NCBI GenBank assembly: GCA_016182655.1
Contig: JACPGB010000028.1
Coordinates: 62,001-126,000, forward strand
Source of the DNA: Deltaproteobacteria bacterium
GTDB taxonomy: Bacteria; Desulfobacterota; GWC2-55-46
Length of the DNA stretch: 64,000 bases
Direction: 5' to 3'
The notes beneath the pieces were generated by a model. That model made no database searches. It had not been told where the DNA came from and worked only from the letters and a program-made list of their open reading frames with translations. Positions 35,371 through 46,750 of this stretch are shown one piece after another (positions within the stretch are counted from its first letter, which is position 1; each line of letters opens with the position of its first letter). A program made the position numbers and the translations under genes.

Positions 35371-37659
35371 TTATTTCATCTCTTTCAAAGCGGCCCTCGC
35401 CTCGTCAGCCCCCGGATATTTGGCGTTAAGCTCGAGCGACCTTGAAAGCTCCTGCCTCGCGAGCCTCTTGTCCCCCTTCCCGAGATAGGCCATGCCGAGA
35501 TGATAGCGTATCTGAGGGTTATCCGGCGCCTTCTCGAGGCTTTCCCTCAATAACGAAACGGACTTCAGGTACGCCTTTTTCTTATAATATATCCATCCGA
35601 GCGTATCCGACACATAAGGGTCTTCCGGCCTCTGTCCCTTGGCGGTCTCGGCGAGATTAAGGGCTACGTCGAGGTTGCCGTTGTTCTCGCAGTACAGCCA
35701 CGCAAGGTTATTGAGGGCAGGCGCGAACCTGGGGTTTATCTCAAGTAGCCTCTTGTAATGGGCCTCGGCCTCCTTGACGTTGCCCTGCTTTTCGTAAAGC
35801 ACCCCCAGCATCATGTGTGGGGCCGCCTGCCTGGGGTCCTTCTGTATCGCCTCGTTGTACCGCTTTATCGCCTCTTCAAAAGAGCCCTTGCCGTAATACA
35901 GGTTGCCGAGATCAAGGTACGCCTGTGGGATATCGTCCTTTATCTCTATAGCCTTCTTGAAGGCCGTCTCGGCCTCGCCGAGGTCCCTTTTCAGCATATG
36001 GATCCTCCCGAGGAGGAGCGGGTAGGCCGGATCTCCGGGGTATTTGCTCATGTGATCGACTACACGCCCTATCGCCTTCTTATCCTCTTTTCTTGATATC
36101 TCGAGGGAGACGATCATCCCGAGCACATCCGGCTGGCCCGGGTCTATCGAGAGGGACCTTTCAAATTCCGCGACGGCCCTTTTCCAGTCGCCCTGCATCT
36201 GGTAGGCGAGAGCGAGCCTTGAATGGCCGCGGGGGTCCTTTGGCGCGACCCTGACGAGGTTATCGAAAAACGCCCTCGCCTCACCGGGCTTCCTTAGCCT
36301 CAAGTTTATGTCGCCGGCGACGAGATTAGCCGCCGGGTTCTGCCTGTTCTTTCCAAGCACCTTCGAGGCCTCTTCCATTGCGAGCTTCAAGTCGCCTGAG
36401 GCCATAAGGTGGGTCGCGAGAGCGAGCCTCGCTCCGTCAAACCCGGGGGCGAGCTTTATGGCCTCGCTAAACTCCGACTTGGCTGACTCCGGGTTGCCGG
36501 TGATCTCGTAGGCGAGGCCGAGATAATAATGGCCGGACGGTGAGGCGGGCTCGTCCTTGAGGAAGAGCTTGAAGTCCTCGACCGCTTCCTGCGCCTTCTT
36601 TTCCATGAGGCGCAGACGCCCCCTCAAATAGAGCCCGTGGGGGTCGTTCTGGTTCTTGCCGAGTATCTTGTCGACCTGCTCCGAGGCCTCCTTGACGTTA
36701 TTCGTGTCGAGGAGGAGCTCGGCAAGCGGCTTACTGAGTGTCGCCGTCTCGGTTATCTTTTCAATGCCCGACTTGTATACCTTTATTGCCTCTTCGGGCC
36801 TTCCCGTTGCCAGATGGAAATTGGCGAGCATCATATAAGGCTCTGTCCTGCCCGGGTTCAATTCAACCACGCCCTTGAGGGTCTTTTCCGCAAGCTCCGG
36901 CCTCTTTGTCCTCATGTAAAGGTTGGCGAGCGCGATAAGCGGGGCCGGGCTCTTCGGCTGGGCCTCGGAGGCCTTCTTAAGCTCGCCCTCGGCGTCAGGG
37001 ACCCTGCCCTGGGCCGCGTATATGTTCGATAGCTGGATGCGCGCGTCGATCGAGTCCGGCTTGAGCTCTATCGCGCGCCTTAATCTCTCCTCCGCCGACT
37101 TCAGGTCGCCCTTGGCAAGATAAATGCCTGCCGTCGCCATGTGGACCTTCAGATTTTCCGGGCTCGCCTTCAAGGCCTCGTCGATGGCCTGAAGCGCCTT
37201 TGAGAAGTTCTTCTGTCCCGCGAGGGAGGCGGCCAGGAGCACCTTGGCGTCCATGTTGCCCGGGTCCTTGGCGAGTATGCCTTCAGCCTTTTCTCTCGCG
37301 TTGCCGAAGTCCCTGGAAAGGACGTATAGCTCGCCCATCTTGAGTTGGGCGTCCACGAGGTCCGGCTTAAGGTCTGTGGCCAGGGCGAACTCCCTGAAGG
37401 CGTTCTGCAGGCCCGCCACCCCTCCCATCCCCAGATACGCGAGCCCGAGATTATAGTGCCCAATGGCGTTCTTTTTATCTATCTGGACGGCGTTCTTGAA
37501 CTCTATCGAGGCCTCCTTGAAGCTTGCGGCCTTGAGGTATTCATCCCCCTTTTTCATGTGCTTCTCGACCTTCTTCTCGGGGCTCTGGGAGCACCCGAAA
37601 AAAAGAGGCAAAAATAGGGAGAGCAAAATGATCAGTTTAAAAGCCCTTAAATTTTTCAT
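35371..37659 (-). CDS. prsT: PEP-CTERM system TPR-repeat lipoprotein PrsT
   Basis: A 762-residue lipoprotein. The signal peptide ends in the lipobox LFFGC (Cys23). About twenty tetratricopeptide repeats follow (for example AIGHYNLGLAYLGMGG, AYLDLGNLYYGKGSFEEAIKRYNEAI) to the C-terminus. Very long TPR lipoproteins of this kind accompany PEP-CTERM/exosortase and exopolysaccharide loci, and prsK and prsR lie nearby. It is expected in the periplasm, anchored to a membrane, as a scaffold for polysaccharide export. A general TPR lipoprotein of another function is possible but less likely here. Confidence 0.85.
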   Translation of the reverse strand: MKNLRAFKLIILLSLFLPLFFGCSQSPEKKVEKHMKKGDEYLKAASFKEASIEFKNAVQIDKKNAIGHYNLGLAYLGMGGVAGLQNAFREFALATDLKPDLVDAQLKMGELYVLSRDFGNAREKAEGILAKDPGNMDAKVLLAASLAGQKNFSKALQAIDEALKASPENLKVHMATAGIYLAKGDLKSAEERLRRAIELKPDSIDARIQLSNIYAAQGRVPDAEGELKKASEAQPKSPAPLIALANLYMRTKRPELAEKTLKGVVELNPGRTEPYMMLANFHLATGRPEEAIKVYKSGIEKITETATLSKPLAELLLDTNNVKEASEQVDKILGKNQNDPHGLYLRGRLRLMEKKAQEAVEDFKLFLKDEPASPSGHYYLGLAYEITGNPESAKSEFSEAIKLAPGFDGARLALATHLMASGDLKLAMEEASKVLGKNRQNPAANLVAGDINLRLRKPGEARAFFDNLVRVAPKDPRGHSRLALAYQMQGDWKRAVAEFERSLSIDPGQPDVLGMIVSLEISRKEDKKAIGRVVDHMSKYPGDPAYPLLLGRIHMLKRDLGEAETAFKKAIEIKDDIPQAYLDLGNLYYGKGSFEEAIKRYNEAIQKDPRQAAPHMMLGVLYEKQGNVKEAEAHYKRLLEINPRFAPALNNLAWLYCENNGNLDVALNLAETAKGQRPEDPYVSDTLGWIYYKKKAYLKSVSLLRESLEKAPDNPQIRYHLGMAYLGKGDKRLARQELSRSLELNAKYPGADEARAALKEMK

Positions 37660-37775: not shown

Positions 37776-37793
37776 GTGTCCATTTTCTTTACA
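37776..37793 (-). promoter_or_regulatory. Putative PrsR enhancer site, outer (PEP-CTERM gene 1)
   Basis: Read on the minus strand: TGTAAAGAAAATGGACAC. Related sites occur at 37884, 40789 and 40888. Its centre is about 227 bp upstream of the -12 element of the sigma-54 promoter at 37998-38013. It also lies between prsT and the PEP-CTERM gene, so it could serve both. Confidence 0.6.
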
Positions 37794-37883
37794 CCGAATA
37801 TATTATAAGAAGAGATGTAACGTGCTGAAATTAATACACAAATTAAAAACAGGCCTTTGCGACCGGTTTTTCAGAGCTCTTGA

Positions 37884-37902
37884 CTGTTCATTTTTTTTAC
37901 AA
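37884..37902 (-). promoter_or_regulatory. Putative PrsR enhancer site, inner (PEP-CTERM gene 1)
   Basis: Read on the minus strand: TTGTAAAAAAAATGAACAG. It is a weaker match to the shared motif, lying about 118 bp upstream of the -12 element. That is the same distance as the inner site of the second PEP-CTERM promoter. Confidence 0.55.
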
Positions 37903-37997
37903 AACACCGGCGGGCTTGAAGAAATAACGGAGGGGAGGTCCGGTTAAAAGGTTAATAAATCAGGTAATTACAATGAAAAAGCTTTTTTTTCGAGCGC

Positions 37998-38013
37998 TGG
38001 CATTTGAATTGCA
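37998..38013 (+). promoter_or_regulatory. Sigma-54 promoter of PEP-CTERM gene 1
   Basis: TGGCATTTGAATTGCA fits the -24/-12 consensus TGGCAC-N5-TTGCA with a single mismatch and exact GG-N10-GC spacing. Transcription would start near 38024, about 15 bp before the ATG at 38039. This rules out the upstream in-frame ATG at 37973. Confidence 0.82.
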
Positions 38014-38038
38014 TTGTACTAAGGGCAGAGGTGAGCTT

Positions 38039-38809
38039 ATGAGAAAGACCAGTCGCTACGCCAGGATCATATCATTAACTTTTTTCGTCGCTCTCTTTTT
38101 GATCATGACGAGCACAAAGAGCTACGCCATCCCTACCCTCCAGCTCGATCTCTCAGGAGGGACTTATGAATACGATACGAGCACGATAGTAACCTCAAGC
38201 GACAGTTTCACTCTCTACGCCTATCTGATGCCGAACTCGAAAAACACGCTGAGCGACACCTACTATATATCAATTGCCCTTGTCCCGGCTACCAGCACAA
38301 GCCAGGACCTTGGCACCATCAGCATAAATTCGACTACGATCGACGTCACCTCGGACATGACCTACGGCATACCGCCGCTTGAGGAGATCGCGTCCCTCCA
38401 GGGCTGGGACAAGGGCGACCTGCCGAAGCACGGCGTCTACCCGACTTATTTCTATGAATATGAGTTCAGCTTCTCGTCCTCGAATGAGATAAGCGCCTAT
38501 AACACGCAAGACAGGGCGATCAATGGGGACACGATCGACCTTACCTACGATTCCTCGGGAAACATGTTTTACGCCGCATTTACGATCGACACGTCTTCGC
38601 TGGATTCAGACTACAGCGTCCACTTCGATCTTTACAATACGGCGCTCAAGTGCGGCGGCGACGTCGACGTGACCCAGTTCGCCCCCTTCTCGCATGACGC
38701 GGAAGCAACGCATTCAGTACCGGAGCCAGGGACCCTGTTACTTTTGTCATCCGGGCTTTTAGGGCTTGCGGCGGTCAAACGGATAAGGAACAGACGTAAC
38801 AAGGCCTAA
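38039..38809 (+). CDS. PEP-CTERM sorting domain protein 1
   Basis: A 256-residue exported protein. A signal peptide (IISLTFFVALFLIMTSTKSYA) and a beta-rich domain of unknown function precede a C-terminal signal. That signal starts with VPEPGTLLLLSSGLLGLAAV (about residue 227), then the basic tail KRIRNRRNKA. Exosortase XrtA recognises such signals and processes the protein for delivery to the cell surface or exopolysaccharide matrix. The start at 38039 has GAGGTGA upstream. The longer frame from 37973 would span the sigma-54 promoter. A PilZ gene follows 31 bp later. Confidence 0.9.
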   Translation: MRKTSRYARIISLTFFVALFLIMTSTKSYAIPTLQLDLSGGTYEYDTSTIVTSSDSFTLYAYLMPNSKNTLSDTYYISIALVPATSTSQDLGTISINSTTIDVTSDMTYGIPPLEEIASLQGWDKGDLPKHGVYPTYFYEYEFSFSSSNEISAYNTQDRAINGDTIDLTYDSSGNMFYAAFTIDTSSLDSDYSVHFDLYNTALKCGGDVDVTQFAPFSHDAEATHSVPEPGTLLLLSSGLLGLAAVKRIRNRRNKA

Positions 38810-38840
38810 TAAACCTCCGTAAGAAACAGGGACTGCCAAA

Positions 38841-39209
38841 GTGTTAGTAAACAGTTGCCCGAGATGCGAGAGCAAATTCTACACCGCCGTCACCTGCGCG
38901 GATATAAGTTGCCCGTTCTGCGGATTCCTCATCAAATTCTCCGATCATGAGTTAAGGGGGGCCGAGAGGCTTCCCGTCCAGAAGATATGCACCCTCTTCG
39001 AGAACGAATCAAGCATAATAGCCCGCACTACCGATATTTCCAAGACCGGCGTCGGGATCCTCATGGACCGCGCCTTCCCCTTCTACACGGGAGCTATTGT
39101 AAAGGTCAAGATAGACTTCTTTGACATCGATTCCGATGCGGAGGTCGTCTGGGTAAGAAAGTCCGGCCCCATGCTCGCCAAGGCAGGGCTCAGGTTTTGC
39201 CACGCATAG
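38841..39209 (+). CDS. PilZ-domain protein with N-terminal zinc ribbon
   Basis: A 122-residue cytoplasmic protein with GTG start. The N-terminus has a zinc-ribbon pattern, CPRC...CPFC, and a PilZ-like beta-barrel follows (ARTTDISKTGVGILMDRAF, with the D-x-S-x-x-G element). The upstream RxxxR element of c-di-GMP-binding PilZ domains is not clear, so ligand binding is uncertain. It follows PEP-CTERM gene 1 by 31 bp and is probably on the same sigma-54 transcript. This hints at a link between the PEP-CTERM regulon and c-di-GMP control of exopolysaccharide. Confidence 0.78.
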   Translation: MLVNSCPRCESKFYTAVTCADISCPFCGFLIKFSDHELRGAERLPVQKICTLFENESSIIARTTDISKTGVGILMDRAFPFYTGAIVKVKIDFFDIDSDAEVVWVRKSGPMLAKAGLRFCHA

Positions 39210-39660
39210 ATTATCGAAAGGGGGCCCTCTCTTGAAGGCATATTCGTTGCCTGGCCCCTCTCTTCCCTGCCTTAAGGCATACGTTAGCCGCCGCTCATAA
39301 GCCCCCTGAGTCGCAGAAAAAACGGACTCGCCAGCCAATGGAATAGCACGGCTCTACATCCTATTCCGGCATGAAAGAGTCGTCCCCAAATCACAAACGC
39401 GTTGGAGCGCCTCCGGCCTCTTCCCCTCGCATGGTGGATATTTGCTATCCCGCGTACTCCGAAACCGGCATTTAAAAGAGGCTCGCCCAACGGCCTCTCA
39501 AAAACCCTATCATGACGGTAGAACGCAAACCCGCGGAGACTTAACCCGCCCTGCCTTGTTCCACGCCCGCCAGCCTTGCGTCTTTAGGGGAGACACGGCA
39601 CGGCCCCATCGCGAGGGATGGGCCAAGTGTCAGACCTTACATTTACAGATGCAAGCCCGT
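39210..39660. other. Intergenic region without assignable gene
   Basis: About 450 bp with no credible gene. Short inverted repeats occur, for example AGAGGC-N10-GCCTCT near 39476. A GGGGCC/GGCCCC pair with inner AGGCA/TGCCT near 39220-39262 could end the PilZ transcript. Open frames here have no ribosome-binding site and run into the downstream repeat. Confidence 0.4.
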
Positions 39661-39666
39661 AAAAAT

Positions 39667-39702
39667 GAAGGATACCCCGCAGCAAGCTGCGGGGTATCCT
39701 TC
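39667..39702. repeat. Perfect 17-bp inverted repeat
   Basis: GAAGGATACCCCGCAGC (39667-39683), a two-base gap, and its exact complement (39686-39702) form a very stable hairpin or cruciform. It abuts the left arm of the dispersed repeat. T-rich sequence is weak on both sides, so termination is possible but not certain. Confidence 0.75.
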
Positions 39703-39707
39703 TTATA

Positions 39708-39838
39708 CTTCCCCTCCCTCGATGGGAGGGGAGTGAGGGGAGGGTGAAATCATTGTCACCCCCACCCTAACCCTCCCCCATCAAGAGGGAGGGATTAAAA
39801 ACGCGGCAAGCCGCGGGTATTAGACCCTAAGAGAGAAT
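39708..39838. repeat. MITE-like dispersed repeat, full arms
   Basis: The left arm (39708-39746, CCTCCCTCGATGGGAGGGG then AGTGAGGGGAGGGTG), a 10-bp centre AAATCATTGT, and the right arm (39757-39798, CACCCCCACCCTAACCC then CCATCAAGAGGGAGGG) form one large imperfect palindrome. A tail module follows with CGCGGCAAGCCGCGGG and GACCCTAA. The same parts occur at 27.5 and 33.3 kb. Confidence 0.8.
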
Positions 39839-39840
39839 AA

Positions 39841-39872
39841 AAAAAAGCCCCCGGATCCCCAGGGGCTTTTTT
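39841..39872 (-). terminator. Terminator of PEP-CTERM gene 2 (possibly bidirectional)
   Basis: An 11-bp stem AAAAAAGCCCC/GGGGCTTTTTT (39841-39851 and 39862-39872) has T runs on either strand. It lies 25 bp after the stop codon of the second PEP-CTERM gene. Confidence 0.9.
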
Positions 39873-39897
39873 GATTCAAGACTTGCTTGTACTATGC

Positions 39898-40635
39898 TTA
39901 TGCCTTTTTCCTCTTAAGCCAGAGTCCCGCCCCAAGGAGGCCGCTCCCGAGGAGGAGGATCGTCGAAGGCTCGGGGACCGGCGCGACCTCAGACGTCACA
40001 TGGAAACTGCCCCATGACGCGTAGTTAGTGTCGGTGTTGGGGTTTGTGGCCGAATCAAGCACGATGCTTACATAAAATGGTGTCGCGGAACTCCCGTAGA
40101 GCGTCAATGAGTACGTGGTAAGCGGGGAGAGGGTATCAAGAACGCCATCCCCGAATACGGTCCCGCCCCATGCCCAGGTTATCCCGGGGAGCGCCCCGCC
40201 ATATTCGGTAACCGGAGTGCCGTTGGGGTCCGTGCTCACTATCGGGTCCGATACCGCCCCACTGCCGCCGTTGACGAGGTCCCAGTAGTAGCCGGTCTGG
40301 TTTATGTTTACCACGAAAACATCCCAGTATCCGGTCCCCGTGCCGGTAACCGCGTTATAGCTGTCCCAGGTCGAGAGGTCGGCATCGAAGTTTATCGTAT
40401 AGCCGTTCGCGCCCGAGAGCTGAAACCCCGCGCCATAGATAGCTTGCGTCTGTGATGCGCTCTGGACGGCATCCGCATCCGTCACCGCGACCACATCGGT
40501 ATTCGAGAAGACCAATGTCCCGCCCGAGGGCGAATAAGGCGACACATCCCATGTCAAGGCCCATGAATCACTTGAGCCTGCGAGCATGCAGGCCGCTGAA
40601 AGAGCACCCGCCAATATTGTCCTTTTCAAATTCAT
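39898..40635 (-). CDS. PEP-CTERM sorting domain protein 2
   Basis: A 245-residue exported protein. A signal peptide (TILAGALSAACMLAGSSDSWA) and a beta-rich, Gly/Thr-rich body of unknown function lead to VPEPSTILLLGSGLLGAGLW (about residue 220) and the tail LKRKKA. It is a typical XrtA substrate, expected at the cell surface or in the matrix. AGGAGG lies seven bases before the ATG. A textbook sigma-54 promoter and two putative enhancer sites lie upstream, and a strong terminator lies downstream, so it is a single-gene unit. Confidence 0.92.
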   Translation of the reverse strand: MNLKRTILAGALSAACMLAGSSDSWALTWDVSPYSPSGGTLVFSNTDVVAVTDADAVQSASQTQAIYGAGFQLSGANGYTINFDADLSTWDSYNAVTGTGTGYWDVFVVNINQTGYYWDLVNGGSGAVSDPIVSTDPNGTPVTEYGGALPGITWAWGGTVFGDGVLDTLSPLTTYSLTLYGSSATPFYVSIVLDSATNPNTDTNYASWGSFHVTSEVAPVPEPSTILLLGSGLLGAGLWLKRKKA

Positions 40636-40678
40636 CTTCTACCTCCTTAATAAACAGTTTGCTTGAGAGTAATAACTT

Positions 40679-40693
40679 GCAATGCCTGTGCCA
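40679..40693 (-). promoter_or_regulatory. Sigma-54 promoter of PEP-CTERM gene 2
   Basis: On the minus strand TGGCACAGGCATTGC followed by A is a perfect match to TGGCAC-N5-TTGCA with GG-N10-GC spacing. The start codon is 44 bp downstream of the -12 GC. Confidence 0.92.
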
Positions 40694-40788
40694 ACTTTCG
40701 AGTGTGTCTGGTCACACCCATAATGCCTTGATTTTATAAGATTTTTTATAACCGTACCGCCCGCCCTCGCTGAGGCTCAGGTAGCTTG

Positions 40789-40807
40789 TTGTAAAAAAAC
40801 TGGACAC
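40789..40807 (+). promoter_or_regulatory. Putative PrsR enhancer site, inner (PEP-CTERM gene 2)
   Basis: TTGTAAAAAAACTGGACAC lies about 118 bp upstream of the -12 element, in the same orientation to the promoter as the sites of PEP-CTERM gene 1. Confidence 0.65.
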
Positions 40808-40830
40808 CCTTACAAGGCTGTTTTCCATAC

Positions 40831-40860
40831 AATAACGGTCTTTTCTTAAAAACCGTTATT
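40831..40860. repeat. Inverted repeat between the two enhancer-like sites
   Basis: AATAACGGT (40831-40839) and ACCGTTATT (40852-40860) are perfect 9-bp arms around a 12-bp AT-rich loop. It may be the end of the minus-strand epimerase transcript or an extra operator. No T tract follows on the minus strand. Confidence 0.5.
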
Positions 40861-40887
40861 TCTTAACTGGTTACGTGCGGCCATGGG

Positions 40888-40906
40888 TTGTAAAAAATCT
40901 GGACAC
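40888..40906 (+). promoter_or_regulatory. Putative PrsR enhancer site, outer (PEP-CTERM gene 2)
   Basis: TTGTAAAAAATCTGGACAC lies about 217 bp upstream of the -12 element and 99 bp from the inner site. Confidence 0.65.
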
Positions 40907-43279: not shown

Positions 43280-44638
43280 TTAATCGTTTTTTACCTTGAT
43301 GTTATACTTCTTGATAAGGTGGTGGAGCGTCGGCCTCGTCAGCCCGAGGTCCTCGGCCATCTTGCTTACGTTCCCCTTGTGCCTGGCTATCGCGCTGTTT
43401 ATGACCTTTATCTCCATGTTCCTCCTCGCGGTCTTGAGGTCGAGCAACTCGCCCTCCGGGGAGCGGGCCTCGAGCCCGAGGTCTCCCGCGTTGACCGTCT
43501 GCCCGTCGGCGAGCGTTACGGCCCTCCTGATCCTGTTCTCGAGCTCCCTCACGTTCCCGGGCCAATCGTAATTACTTATCGCCGAGACGGCCTCGTCACT
43601 TAAATATTTGGGGCCCGGCCCGGGGGCGGCGAACCTTTTGAGGAAAGCCCTCGCCAGGAGCTCGATGTCTTCCCCCCGGTCCCTGAGAGGCGGCATCCGG
43701 ACGCTTACTACGGCTATCCTGAAAAAGAGATCCTCCCTGAAGAGCCCCTCTTTAACGAGTTTTTCGAGGTCCTTGTTCGTTGCCGCCATGACCCTTATAT
43801 CGACGTCTATTACGCCCCTTCCGCCTACCCGCTCTATCTTATGGTCCTGGAGGAACCGGAGGAGCTTGACCTGGAGGGCGAGCGGGAGCTCGCCTATCTC
43901 GTCAAGGAATAGCGTCCCTCCCCGCGCGAGCTCGATCCTGCCGGCCCTCTGCGCATGGGCGCCGGTAAAGGCCCCTTTCTCATGGCCGAAGAGCTCGCTC
44001 TCCATGAGGTTCTCCGGTATGGCGCCGCAGTTTATGGCTATGAAGGGGCCGCCCTTCCTGAGACCGTTATTGTGTATGCCCCGGGCGACAAGCTCCTTGC
44101 CCGTGCCGGACTCTCCGGTTATGAGCACGGGCACGTCGGTCGTCGAGACCTTCCTCGCTATGGAGAAGACCTCCTGCATGCAGGGGCTCGTGCCGATTAT
44201 CTCCCCGAAAGAGCTTGAGCCGAGCCGGTTCTGGAGCTCCCGGTACTCGGATTCAAGCGTGTAGACGTAGTGGGACCTCTTGAGTATCGCCTTGAGCTCT
44301 TCTATCTCTATGGGCTTTGAGAAGAAGTCCGAGGCCCCTCTGGATATCGCGTTAAGGGCGGAGGATTTGTCCGAGTTGCCGCTTACGACGAGCACCTTGG
44401 CGAGCGGGTTCGCCTGCAGGATAAGCTCAAGAAGCCTGAGCCCCTCGCTGGAATCCTCGGGATGGGGCGGCAGGCCGAGGTCGAGGGTCACGAGCTCCGG
44501 GGATTCCGCCCTCATGGCCTTCATCGCCTCTTCGGCGTTGCTCGCGAGCGTCACTTCATAGTCCCGCGACAGGGCCCACTTCATCTGGGTCCTTATCGGC
44601 TCATCGTCGTCTACTACGAGAATTCTCGGTTTTGCCAT
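43280..44638 (-). CDS. prsR: PEP-CTERM system sigma-54-dependent response regulator PrsR
   Basis: A 452-residue NtrC-type activator. The receiver domain has DDDE and the phospho-acceptor Asp53 (TLDLGLPP). The AAA+ domain has Walker A GESGTGKE and the sigma-54 contact loop GAFTGA in FGHEKGAFTGAHAQRAG. A C-terminal Fis-type helix-turn-helix (NVSKMAEDLGLTRPTLHHL) ends the protein. It lies directly after prsK, its cognate sensor. It should bind enhancer DNA and activate sigma-54 promoters such as those found before both PEP-CTERM genes here. Confidence 0.94.
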   Translation of the reverse strand: MAKPRILVVDDDEPIRTQMKWALSRDYEVTLASNAEEAMKAMRAESPELVTLDLGLPPHPEDSSEGLRLLELILQANPLAKVLVVSGNSDKSSALNAISRGASDFFSKPIEIEELKAILKRSHYVYTLESEYRELQNRLGSSSFGEIIGTSPCMQEVFSIARKVSTTDVPVLITGESGTGKELVARGIHNNGLRKGGPFIAINCGAIPENLMESELFGHEKGAFTGAHAQRAGRIELARGGTLFLDEIGELPLALQVKLLRFLQDHKIERVGGRGVIDVDIRVMAATNKDLEKLVKEGLFREDLFFRIAVVSVRMPPLRDRGEDIELLARAFLKRFAAPGPGPKYLSDEAVSAISNYDWPGNVRELENRIRRAVTLADGQTVNAGDLGLEARSPEGELLDLKTARRNMEIKVINSAIARHKGNVSKMAEDLGLTRPTLHHLIKKYNIKVKND

Positions 44639-44668: not shown

Positions 44669-46750
44669 CTACGGGAAACTGACGGTAAAGACCGTCCCGC
44701 CTGCCGTGCTTTCGACCTCGATCGTGCCGCCGTGGGCCTCCACCAGGTGCTTGCACTGGAAGAGGCCTATGCCGAAGCCGTTCTTTTTCGTGGTCTTGAA
44801 GGGTTTAAAGAGGTCCTTTTCTATGAACTCCCTTGGTATTCCGGGGCCGTCGTCGGAGACGGAGAGGCATGCCCTGCCGTTTTCGCGGTAGGCTCTCACC
44901 TTGACGCCGCCGTGGTCCTCGACGGCCTCGTAGGCGTTCACGATGAGGTTCAATACTACCATTTCCACCGAGTCCGGGTCAACGCTCGCAACGGCGGAGC
45001 CGTCCGAATCGATTGAGAGTCTCACGTTCTTTTTTTCGGTAAGCGTCACCTTCTGCATGGCTCTCTGCGCGAGGTCGCCAAGGTCGGAGAGCTCCTTCCT
45101 GGACTCCGTCGCCCCGTCCGGCCTTTTCGGCACGTTCGAGAGCTTTTCTATGAGCTTCTTCATCCTTGTGACGGTGCCGTCTATCGTCCTTATGGCGTCC
45201 TTCTGGAACTCGACGTTGTCCATGTTGTACTTCGCGTTCTGGCTTACGAGTGAAAGCGAGTTCGTCAGGTTCTTAAGGTCGTGCATCATGAACGCGGACA
45301 TCCTGCTGAATATCTCAAGCTCCTTCATGTCGAGTATGTCTTCCGCGAGCCTCGTGTTCTTTATCTGCACCGCCGCCTGGGTGGCGACCGCCTTAAGGAG
45401 GTCGAAGTCGTCCTGACGGTAGGGCTCCCCGGAGAGGTCAGGCCCTTGCAGGATAAAGCCTATTATTTCCCTGTCCACCGCAAGCGGGGCGCAGAGCGTG
45501 GCCCCGATGCTTCTTACGAGCTCGTCCGCCCCGTCTCCCGCCTCTTCGAGAAGGAACGGGCCGGTCCTTTCGTTCATGCGCCTGACGATGGGGTCGGAGG
45601 GCGAGAGGACCCGGAAACGCTCATCCACATCCGACTTGGAGACATAGCTCCTCGACGAAGGCTCGTAGACCCATATGAAGACCTTCGCCCCCATGGTCCC
45701 GGAGACCATCTCCGCCAGGGTGCTCTCGATTTCCGCGACCGCCACCTTCGAGCTTATCCCGTCTATGGCCTCCATCCACTTGTCCCTGAACTCGTACTTG
45801 TGCTTGTAGAAGTGCCTGTTTATGAAGAGCTGGGCCTTTCTGCGGAGCTTCGCGGTGAAAAGGAGTATGACAAGGACGAGAAAGGCGATGAAGACGAGAG
45901 GGGTGGTGAAAAACTCGTTGAAAGGGACGTTAAAGTACCTGGCCCCGTAGACAATGACCCCGGTGGCGAACAGATAGAGGCCGATTGCGAGTATGGTTAC
46001 AGAGTTGTATACAACGTACCTGGAGATGAATATGTCCACGTCCAGGAGCCTGTGCCTGACTATGAAGACGGTCATCATCATGGTGGATATGAATATGACG
46101 GCGGATGTCACGGGCAGGTTCTGAAGGTTTATCGCCGAGAAGAGCACCGCCTTGCTGGAGAGGTATATGAAAAAGGCGAGTACCGACCCGACCCCGAAGA
46201 CGATGTATTTTATCTGCCACCTCTTGGAGCCGGTCGAGGAGCGGAGCGTATTCTCGAGCTGGACGAGGACAAACATGAACCCGATTATGAGATAGGTGTG
46301 GAAGTACTTGCCGGCCTTGCCCAGCATGACCACGGGTGTTTCAAGGCTCTGGAAGGCCGCGCCCTCCACCCCCGGGATAAACGACCCCCGGAACGCCCCC
46401 AGATAGATGAAGAGGGCGGAAGCGAGCGAAGCGCCGATAAGGGCCGGCGTCCATCTCGCGAGGACCTCCCTGTAATCCGCCCTCGCGAATACGATGGAAA
46501 AAAAGAGCCATACCGGCGGCGAGAGCGCTTGTCCGATCACCGAGATGCGTAGCCCCATGAGCGTGCGCCCGGCCTCCGGATACGACATCAGCGCGACCGC
46601 GTCCCCGGCCCCGGCCAGGGCGAACGAAAACATGCCGAGTGAAAAGCTTATGTTCACCATGTGCCGCGGGTTCCGCGAAAGCGTGAACGCGCTCAAGGCG
46701 GCGCATAGAAGCGCGCTCACGACGGGCATTATGGAGAGATAATTATACAA
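44669..46750 (-). CDS. prsK: PEP-CTERM system sensor histidine kinase PrsK
   Basis: A 693-residue membrane kinase. The N-terminal third has about eight to ten hydrophobic helices. A GAF domain follows (LGATLCAPLAVDREIIGFI), then the dimerisation/phosphoacceptor region MHDLKNLTNSLSL (His490). The ATPase domain contains NLIVNAYEAVEDH and SDDGPGIP. This layout matches PrsK of the XrtA/PEP-CTERM system. It is 30 bp upstream of prsR. The stimulus is unknown. A very stable hairpin lies in its upstream region. Confidence 0.93.
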   Translation of the reverse strand: MYNYLSIMPVVSALLCAALSAFTLSRNPRHMVNISFSLGMFSFALAGAGDAVALMSYPEAGRTLMGLRISVIGQALSPPVWLFFSIVFARADYREVLARWTPALIGASLASALFIYLGAFRGSFIPGVEGAAFQSLETPVVMLGKAGKYFHTYLIIGFMFVLVQLENTLRSSTGSKRWQIKYIVFGVGSVLAFFIYLSSKAVLFSAINLQNLPVTSAVIFISTMMMTVFIVRHRLLDVDIFISRYVVYNSVTILAIGLYLFATGVIVYGARYFNVPFNEFFTTPLVFIAFLVLVILLFTAKLRRKAQLFINRHFYKHKYEFRDKWMEAIDGISSKVAVAEIESTLAEMVSGTMGAKVFIWVYEPSSRSYVSKSDVDERFRVLSPSDPIVRRMNERTGPFLLEEAGDGADELVRSIGATLCAPLAVDREIIGFILQGPDLSGEPYRQDDFDLLKAVATQAAVQIKNTRLAEDILDMKELEIFSRMSAFMMHDLKNLTNSLSLVSQNAKYNMDNVEFQKDAIRTIDGTVTRMKKLIEKLSNVPKRPDGATESRKELSDLGDLAQRAMQKVTLTEKKNVRLSIDSDGSAVASVDPDSVEMVVLNLIVNAYEAVEDHGGVKVRAYRENGRACLSVSDDGPGIPREFIEKDLFKPFKTTKKNGFGIGLFQCKHLVEAHGGTIEVESTAGGTVFTVSFP

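Follow-up and report, generated by a model that had tools for sequence, protein, structure and literature searches.

We found that two promoters in the window (the whole stretch of 64,000 nucleotides analysed) belong to the type of the PEP-CTERM/exosortase regulon and are probably explained by a DNA loop involving the regulator PrsR and IHF. In each promoter two boxes which face the same way, one proximal and one distal, lie upstream of a sigma-54 core, and the stretch from the proximal box to the core contains an IHF-consensus site; the binding of PrsR and of IHF to these elements is predicted from their sequences. From comparisons across two phyla we somewhat favour a strict stereochemical rule, by which an asymmetric PrsR box in a single orientation is helically phased to the core and a phased IHF site lies in the interval. 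If this rule is true, PrsR would be active in one docking geometry only, unlike the flexible enhancer of the textbooks, in which sigma-54 enhancers are orientation-independent. PEP-CTERM proteins have a role in floc cohesion, and ideas about the activation of their genes have so far rested on a prediction made in 2006. The orientation, the helical comb and the IHF site make that prediction testable at the promoter level, and these regularities also provide a sharper search pattern for regulons of this type, in the present case beyond the classical proteobacterial set.

Sigma-54 promoters and PEP-CTERM genes

The −24/−12 cores are TGGCATTTGAATTGC at promoter 1 (37998-38012, + strand) and TGGCACAGGCATTGC at promoter 2 (40679-40693, − strand), both with the exact GG-N10-GC spacing that the first-pass annotation had given them. 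Scanning the window for the sigma-54 pattern with up to one mismatch gave 10 matches against 6.9 expected; a sigma-54 match by itself is weak evidence, and it is the combination with the boxes which exceeds chance. Promoter 1 precedes a PEP-CTERM gene for a choice-of-anchor N protein (gene 1, 38039-38809, + strand; NF038141 169.7 bits, TIGR02595, PF07589) and promoter 2 precedes a second PEP-CTERM gene (gene 2, 39898-40635, − strand; TIGR02595 29.1 bits). The start of gene 1 in the open reading frame list, 37973, sits upstream of the sigma-54 promoter and is therefore not usable; the likely start, as corrected here, is the ATG at 38039, which is preceded by GAGGTGA.

PEP-CTERM boxes

Four boxes of 17 bp lie upstream of the cores. 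At promoter 1 these are the distal box TGTCCATTTTCTTTACA (37777-37793, + strand), an exact match and one of the 8 in the genome, and the proximal box TGTTCATTTTTTTTACA (37885-37901, + strand); at promoter 2 they are the proximal box TGTCCAGTTTTTTTACA (40790-40806, − strand) and the distal box TGTCCAGATTTTTTACA (40889-40905, − strand). Both proximal boxes are 96 bp before the TGGC of the core, and spacers of 74 and 77 bp were found at two other promoters of the same genome. All four boxes fit TGTyCA-N5-TTTACA in one register, so that the gap is N5. The motif first described as (GTGTCCA)N4-5(TTTACA) is thus real and present in two copies per promoter, but its variable gap is not; the distances reported for the sites are also borne out, with box centres 118.5 and 226.5 bp (promoter 1) and 118.5 and 217.5 bp (promoter 2) from the GC.

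With up to three mismatches allowed, the box pattern had 8 matches in the window against 1.5 expected, and the four boxes were the only matches with 0 or 1 mismatch. A genome-wide search found 8 exact copies of TGTCCA-N5-TTTACA in the 2.9-Mb genome, at 5 promoters, all 8 of them upstream of PEP-CTERM genes or operons, and a backwards-control pattern had no exact match in the whole genome.

The PEP-CTERM box promoter is not new as a kind, having been proposed in 2006 by Haft et al. (PMC1569441), who described motif 1 (17 nt, with a TTTACA end and “sometimes repeated”) as well as motif 2 (sigma-54), with PrsR as the predicted binding protein. The window promoters share these features, having a 17-nt TTTACA-ending motif before a PEP-CTERM gene and a sigma-54 GG/GC downstream of it. 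The box-promoter spacer of Haft et al. was 62.8 ± 10.6 with a range of 32-92, which was a reported range and not a strict criterion (PMC1569441); the spacers of the window promoters lie outside this range, and longer spacers also occur in other genomes. The IHF site and the orientation of the box are not mentioned in that paper (PMC1569441), where “helical” appears only in the title of a reference on protein prediction.

Orientation and pairing of the boxes

The TTTACA half of the box points toward the promoter. The same orientation of all sites, noted initially at these two promoters, is supported still more strongly across genomes: a search of 50 regulon genomes for a reversed box before a sigma-54 core returned 8 matches, 7 of which were perfect palindromes already counted forward, and the distal boxes among 77 promoters comprised 24 forward and 3 reverse. 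The fixed paired spacing near ten helical turns, which was suggested at the same time, was rejected, as the two boxes of a pair were 108, 99, 88 and 94 bp apart in the genome under study (a range of 88-108 bp) and 21-211 bp apart in other genomes. A pair of boxes was present at about one third of promoters and most promoters elsewhere had one box in the range searched; within this genome, only one box, at 160 bp, precedes the promoter at C54:61630. By inspection, no consistent helical phase was found for the distal box.

Box-to-promoter spacing across genomes

Of 395 genomes from the phylum, 20 contained the joint box-spacer-sigma-54 pattern, as did 25 of 369 genomes from a second class (Gammaproteobacteria) and 29 of 399 from a separately drawn order (Burkholderiales). 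The class sample had 34 non-duplicate sites, and 24 of them precede PEP-CTERM-like genes, as read by eye. It is hardly credible that the boxes are chance matches in A/T-rich DNA with no regulatory role: although the lack of enrichment of sigma-54-like matches by themselves in the window would fit such an origin, the backwards-control pattern had 0 matches in the phylum, class and order searches, and the genome-wide counts, with every exact box before PEP-CTERM genes, already contradict it.

In two phyla, the distances from box to promoter group near 53, 63, 74, 84, 96 and 106 bp and form a comb with a step of about 10.5-11 bp. At a period of 10.5 bp the 97 non-duplicate sites had a Rayleigh R of 0.62; when the dominant 60-66 group was removed (N = 55), R was 0.45 with a best period of 10.95, matched by 0 of 20,000 sets drawn at random. 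The replicate in Burkholderiales had 31 of 39 spacers within spacer ranges fixed in advance (p = 1e−6), but only 9 of 15 when the 60-66 group was removed (p = 0.08). A helical spacing had originally been placed between the paired boxes; it is supported, but between the box and the promoter. Clusters of this kind could also arise from common ancestry of the promoters, and a 62-64 bp group is indeed dominant in both the Gammaproteobacteria and the Burkholderiales samples. We regard this explanation as distinctly unlikely, since most spacers are unrelated in sequence (28% median identity), near-identical pairs had been collapsed, and the comb remains when the 60-66 group is left out and has an equal phase in the two phyla.

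IHF-consensus site

The IHF-consensus sites are AATCAGGTAATTA (WATCARNNNNTTR) at promoter 1 (37958-37970, + strand) and AATCAAGGCATTA at promoter 2 (40721-40733, − strand). Both are perfect matches, of which there are only three in the 64 kb, and both have their centre 34 bp before the TGGC. An IHF-like site between box and promoter had been missed in the first-pass annotation. Perfect matches between box and core were found at 4 of the 5 promoters of this genome, and the promoter at C51:21708 had no match within one mismatch. IHF alpha and IHF beta are both encoded in the genome, with scores over the cut-off.

Across genomes, the IHF consensus with up to one mismatch was found in 47 of 77 spacers vs 16 of 77 stretches of adjacent upstream DNA (p = 6e−7), and perfect consensus matches numbered 14 vs 2. 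The spacers are more A+T-rich than this control DNA (GC of 0.35 vs 0.45), and part of the excess over the control could therefore be due to composition. This richness, together with the promoter which has no IHF match, is what would be expected if the DNA between box and promoter bent intrinsically, through A/T tracts, or by means of HU, the IHF match being a by-product. Such a bend is unlikely given that perfect matches occurred in 15 of 86 spacers vs 1.1 expected from composition-preserving shuffles, and that the two window promoters carry two of the three perfect matches in 64 kb at an equal offset. Preferred positions also argue for IHF: matches on the promoter strand fall at 12-14, 23-25 and 34-36 (26 vs 2.3) and those on the other strand at 25-26 (18 vs 0.4), in position ranges picked after viewing an earlier IHF scan and with shuffles which keep composition.

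PrsR, PrsK and PrsT

The predicted binder of the boxes, PrsR, is encoded at 43280-44638 (− strand; TIGR02915 580.5 bits, cut-off 502.6) and has receiver, sigma-54 AAA+ and Fis-type HTH domains (PF00072, PF00158, PF02954). Its predicted partner, the histidine kinase PrsK, is at 44669-46750 (− strand; TIGR02916 414.5 bits, cut-off 300), and the TPR lipoprotein PrsT, a third marker of the system, is at 35371-37659 (− strand; TIGR02917 403.5 bits, cut-off 312.2). All three exceed their curated cut-offs. Their presence around the boxes and the 2006 proposal (PMC1569441) support, as a prediction, the initial claim that the motif is the PrsR enhancer; the literature searched for PrsR binding to the box contained no footprinting experiment.

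The same genome encodes, at another place, a second PrsR (G000:C21:20867-22192; 575 bits) beside a PrsK-like kinase, and the binder is therefore not uniquely the PrsR of 43280-44638, whose location had been correctly annotated at first pass, where the second prsK-prsR module was missed. The boxes might be bound by this second PrsR, or by both paralogues, and not mainly by the window PrsR. Both proteins are over the TIGR02915 cut-off and adjoin a PrsK-like kinase, and one genus member with boxes (G007) has an over-cut-off PrsR of the C21 type only; on the other hand, in another member (G005, 100% complete), which has the same paired boxes, the only over-cut-off PrsR is of the window type (88% identical), and the window boxes adjoin the window prsR. 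We therefore consider a main role for the second PrsR, or for both, to be rather unlikely, and take the window PrsR as the main candidate. Comparison of the HTH sequences of PrsR orthologues with the box variants TGTCCA, TGTCGA, TGTCAA and TGTAAA revealed two HTH types and no clear one-to-one match. It should be noted that the PrsR search in named genomes returned, after the first few matches, mostly other NtrC-like regulators and was kept out of the promoter statistics.

Proposed mechanism and related systems

PrsK would phosphorylate PrsR, and a PrsR dimer would bind the asymmetric dyad TGT(C/A)NA-N5-TTTACA via its Fis-type HTH. IHF would bend the DNA that separates the proximal box from the core, PrsR at the proximal box would be brought onto the sigma-54 RNA polymerase, and the promoter would be opened by ATP hydrolysis. 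A loop of about 50-110 bp is too short for free twist, and the box would therefore have to be on one helix face with its TTTACA half toward the promoter. The distal box, the distance of which is unconstrained, probably aids PrsR assembly or raises the local concentration of PrsR.

Sigma-54 promoters of the NifA/NtrC type likewise have an activator site, an IHF site and a −24/−12 core. NifA sites are TGT-N10-ACA dyads, whereas the box here is TGT-N11-ACA, and in contrast to promoters of this type its dyad is asymmetric and its orientation fixed. Looping at sigma-54 promoters is often helped by IHF (PMC7057263), and natural sigma-54 loop sequences have been reported to be sensitive to the helical repeat (PMC4740811). 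Vibrio qrr/LuxO enhancers are alike in their helical-repeat sensitivity but differ in activator and genes. The pepA gene of Aquincola tertiaricarbonis is an RpoN-dependent PEP-CTERM gene with a mapped −24/−12 start and a predicted enhancer, and the available text of that report describes no PrsR or IHF binding (PMC9850573).

A PilZ-domain gene with a zinc-ribbon-like N-terminus (38841-39209, + strand; PF07238 41.2 bits) follows gene 1 at a distance of 31 bp. The two genes probably form one sigma-54 operon and would be co-transcribed, and the position of the PilZ gene downstream of gene 1 suggests a connection to cyclic di-GMP.

Box-type promoters of the PEP-CTERM genes

Inspection of the sequence between 37400 and 41200 found the layout described in the first-pass annotation, two sigma-54 promoters with paired upstream sites, and GG-N10-GC spacing holds in both sigma-54 elements. 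A single 17-bp register, TGTyCA-N5-TTTACA, fits all four upstream motifs (PEP-CTERM boxes), located at 37777-37793 and 37885-37901 (+) before PEP-CTERM gene 1 and at 40790-40806 and 40889-40905 (-) before PEP-CTERM gene 2. The annotated distances to the GC were also right (118.5/226.5 and 118.5/217.5 bp), and these are the only box matches with 0 or 1 mismatch within the window. Sigma-54-like matches by themselves were no more frequent than expected by chance in a scan of the window, so the evidential weight rests on the combination. Mechanical ORF calling placed the start of gene 1 at 37973, upstream of its sigma-54 promoter; the real start is likely to be 38039, which is followed by signal-peptide-like sequence.

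The window system belongs to the PEP-CTERM system described by Haft et al. 2006 (PMC1569441), who reported a 17-nt motif with a TTTACA end, "sometimes repeated", a sigma-54 motif 62.8 ± 10.6 nt (32-92) beyond it, and a cognate activator, identified as PrsR, predicted to bind the 17-nt motif. As the layout and PrsR, PrsK and PrsT were already described there, the window case adds to a known system. Later work on Aquincola showed that expression of a PEP-CTERM gene depends on RpoN and mapped its start to a -24/-12 promoter (PMC9850573). The openly licensed papers searched report no PrsR binding test.

The exact box was found 8 times in the 2.9-Mb assembly, vs 0 for a backwards control, and 22 vs 4 times with ≤ 1 mismatch. 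Each of the 8 exact sites precedes a PEP-CTERM gene or operon: the two genes of the window, two tandem PEP-CTERM genes at C51:21.5 kb, a gene or operon at C51:42.5 kb, and a short gene followed by a 745-aa PEP-CTERM open frame at C54:61.5 kb. A GG-N10-GC promoter was present at 5/5 box loci in this genome and two boxes at 4/5; 6 of the 7 PEP-CTERM genes scoring over the cut-off have a box-type promoter ahead of them. The fifth promoter (G000:C54:61630), conserved in genomes G005 and G007, has a single box at 160 bp and a perfect IHF match at 21 bp; its first gene encodes a lipoprotein-like protein of 136 aa without a Pfam match.

Spacing, orientation and IHF consensus matches

We searched 395 genomes of the same phylum, 369 of the Sedimenticola class and 399 of the Ramlibacter order for a sigma-54 core, a 51-111 bp spacer and a box, using exact patterns, which miss weaker sites. 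The third and second samples overlap in at least G755, G539 and G656, and G755, the only overlapping genome with matches, was excluded. The backwards control gave 0 matches in any of the three samples, and 24 of 34 non-duplicate sites in the class sample were ahead of a gene with a PEP-CTERM-like end, as judged by eye. Spacer lengths were uneven, with peaks at 51-54, 61-64, 71-77, 83-85, 95-96 and 103-108 bp and near-empty gaps. The Rayleigh value at 10.5 bp was 0.62 (97 sites) and 0.45 after removal of the dominant 60-66 group (55 sites), where the best-period value was reached by 0/20,000 random sets; the first two samples shared one phase. For the third sample, with windows fixed beforehand, 31/39 spacers fell inside (p = 1e-6), mostly in the 62-64 group. 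Without that group only 9/15 were inside (p = 0.08), so the spacer comb is well supported overall but not independently proven in the third sample.

A reversed box with the same core gave 8 matches in 50 regulon genomes; 7 of these matches were perfect palindromes that the forward count already included, so that one true reverse remained. Since these genomes had been chosen for forward matches, a second test without such selection considered additional boxes ≤ 250 bp upstream of the proximal box (that nearer the core): these were forward at 24/77 promoters, about one third, and reverse at 3/77. Both results indicate that the conserved TTTACA half faces the promoter, consistent with the single orientation noted in the first-pass annotation; the other half varies (TGTCCA, TGTCGA, TGTCAA, TGTAAA). 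The proposed fixed pair spacing near ten helical turns proved to be no rule, with distances of 108, 99, 88 and 94 bp in this genome and 21-211 bp in others.

The IHF consensus WATCARNNNNTTR is conspicuous between the proximal box and the core. At each of the two window promoters a perfect match is centred 34 bp before the TGGC of the core, on the promoter strand, and these are 2 of only 3 perfect matches in the whole window; 4/5 promoters of this genome have one. Perfect matches were found at 15/86 sites vs 1.1 in composition-preserving shuffles, and matches with ≤ 1 mismatch in 47/77 spacers vs 16/77 in real DNA just upstream of the box. Preferred positions, in windows picked after the first position results, were about 13, 24 and 35 bp on the promoter strand and 25-26 bp on the other. 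IHF alpha and beta are both encoded in this genome, over cut-off.

Candidate activator and promoter geometry

The window PrsR (43280-44638, -) matched TIGR02915 at 580 bits, over the cut-off, and has receiver, sigma-54 activator and Fis-type HTH domains; PrsK (TIGR02916) and PrsT (TIGR02917) also exceeded their cut-offs. As a second prsK-prsR module is present at C21 in the same genome, either PrsR could bind the boxes. In the complete sister genome G005 the boxes are retained and only the window type of PrsR scores over cut-off, which favours the window PrsR as the predicted binder. The C21 locus (L198, G000:C21:15500-23500) carries PrsK-like, PrsR and nucleotide-sugar-dehydrogenase genes in the same order as the window. 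It also has a PrsR-like regulator with a lower score, a small open frame of PEP-CTERM type and a TPR gene resembling prsT, and looks like a duplicated regulatory module.

The regularities of these promoter sequences are direct observations, from which we infer PrsR and IHF binding, bending and activation. Their simplest reading is a predicted IHF-bent short loop between the proximal box and the core, in which PrsR at the proximal box would meet sigma-54 RNA polymerase in a single geometry. Such a loop would account at once for the phase, the orientation and the position of the IHF match. The distal box, whose distance is unconstrained, is likely auxiliary. IHF is not mentioned in Haft et al. 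2006 (PMC1569441); its role at sigma-54 promoters is well known generally (PMC7057263), and for the qrr genes natural sigma-54 loops have been reported as helically sensitive (PMC4740811).

Other genes behind boxes

31 bp behind PEP-CTERM gene 1, and probably in the same sigma-54 operon, is a PilZ-domain gene (38841-39209, +) with a zinc-ribbon-like start, which retains the RxxxR and DxSxxG residues that would be expected in a protein binding cyclic di-GMP. Related PilZ genes lie behind their own box and sigma-54 match in two sister genomes (G016:C265 and G013:C104). At L125 (G026:C91:12321) and related sites in G027, G028 and G029, a box and sigma-54 element at 75-77 bp precede a conserved gene that lacks PEP-CTERM. 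Its product in G026 is an SLT transglycosylase, and wall enzymes may therefore be part of the regulon. In three related genomes (L283, L284 and L286 in G211, G256 and G234) a TGTATA/TGTTTA-type dyad, possibly a site of another activator, lies 83 bp before a sigma-54 core, ahead of a long gene in which a PDZ/HtrA-like stretch was recognised by eye.
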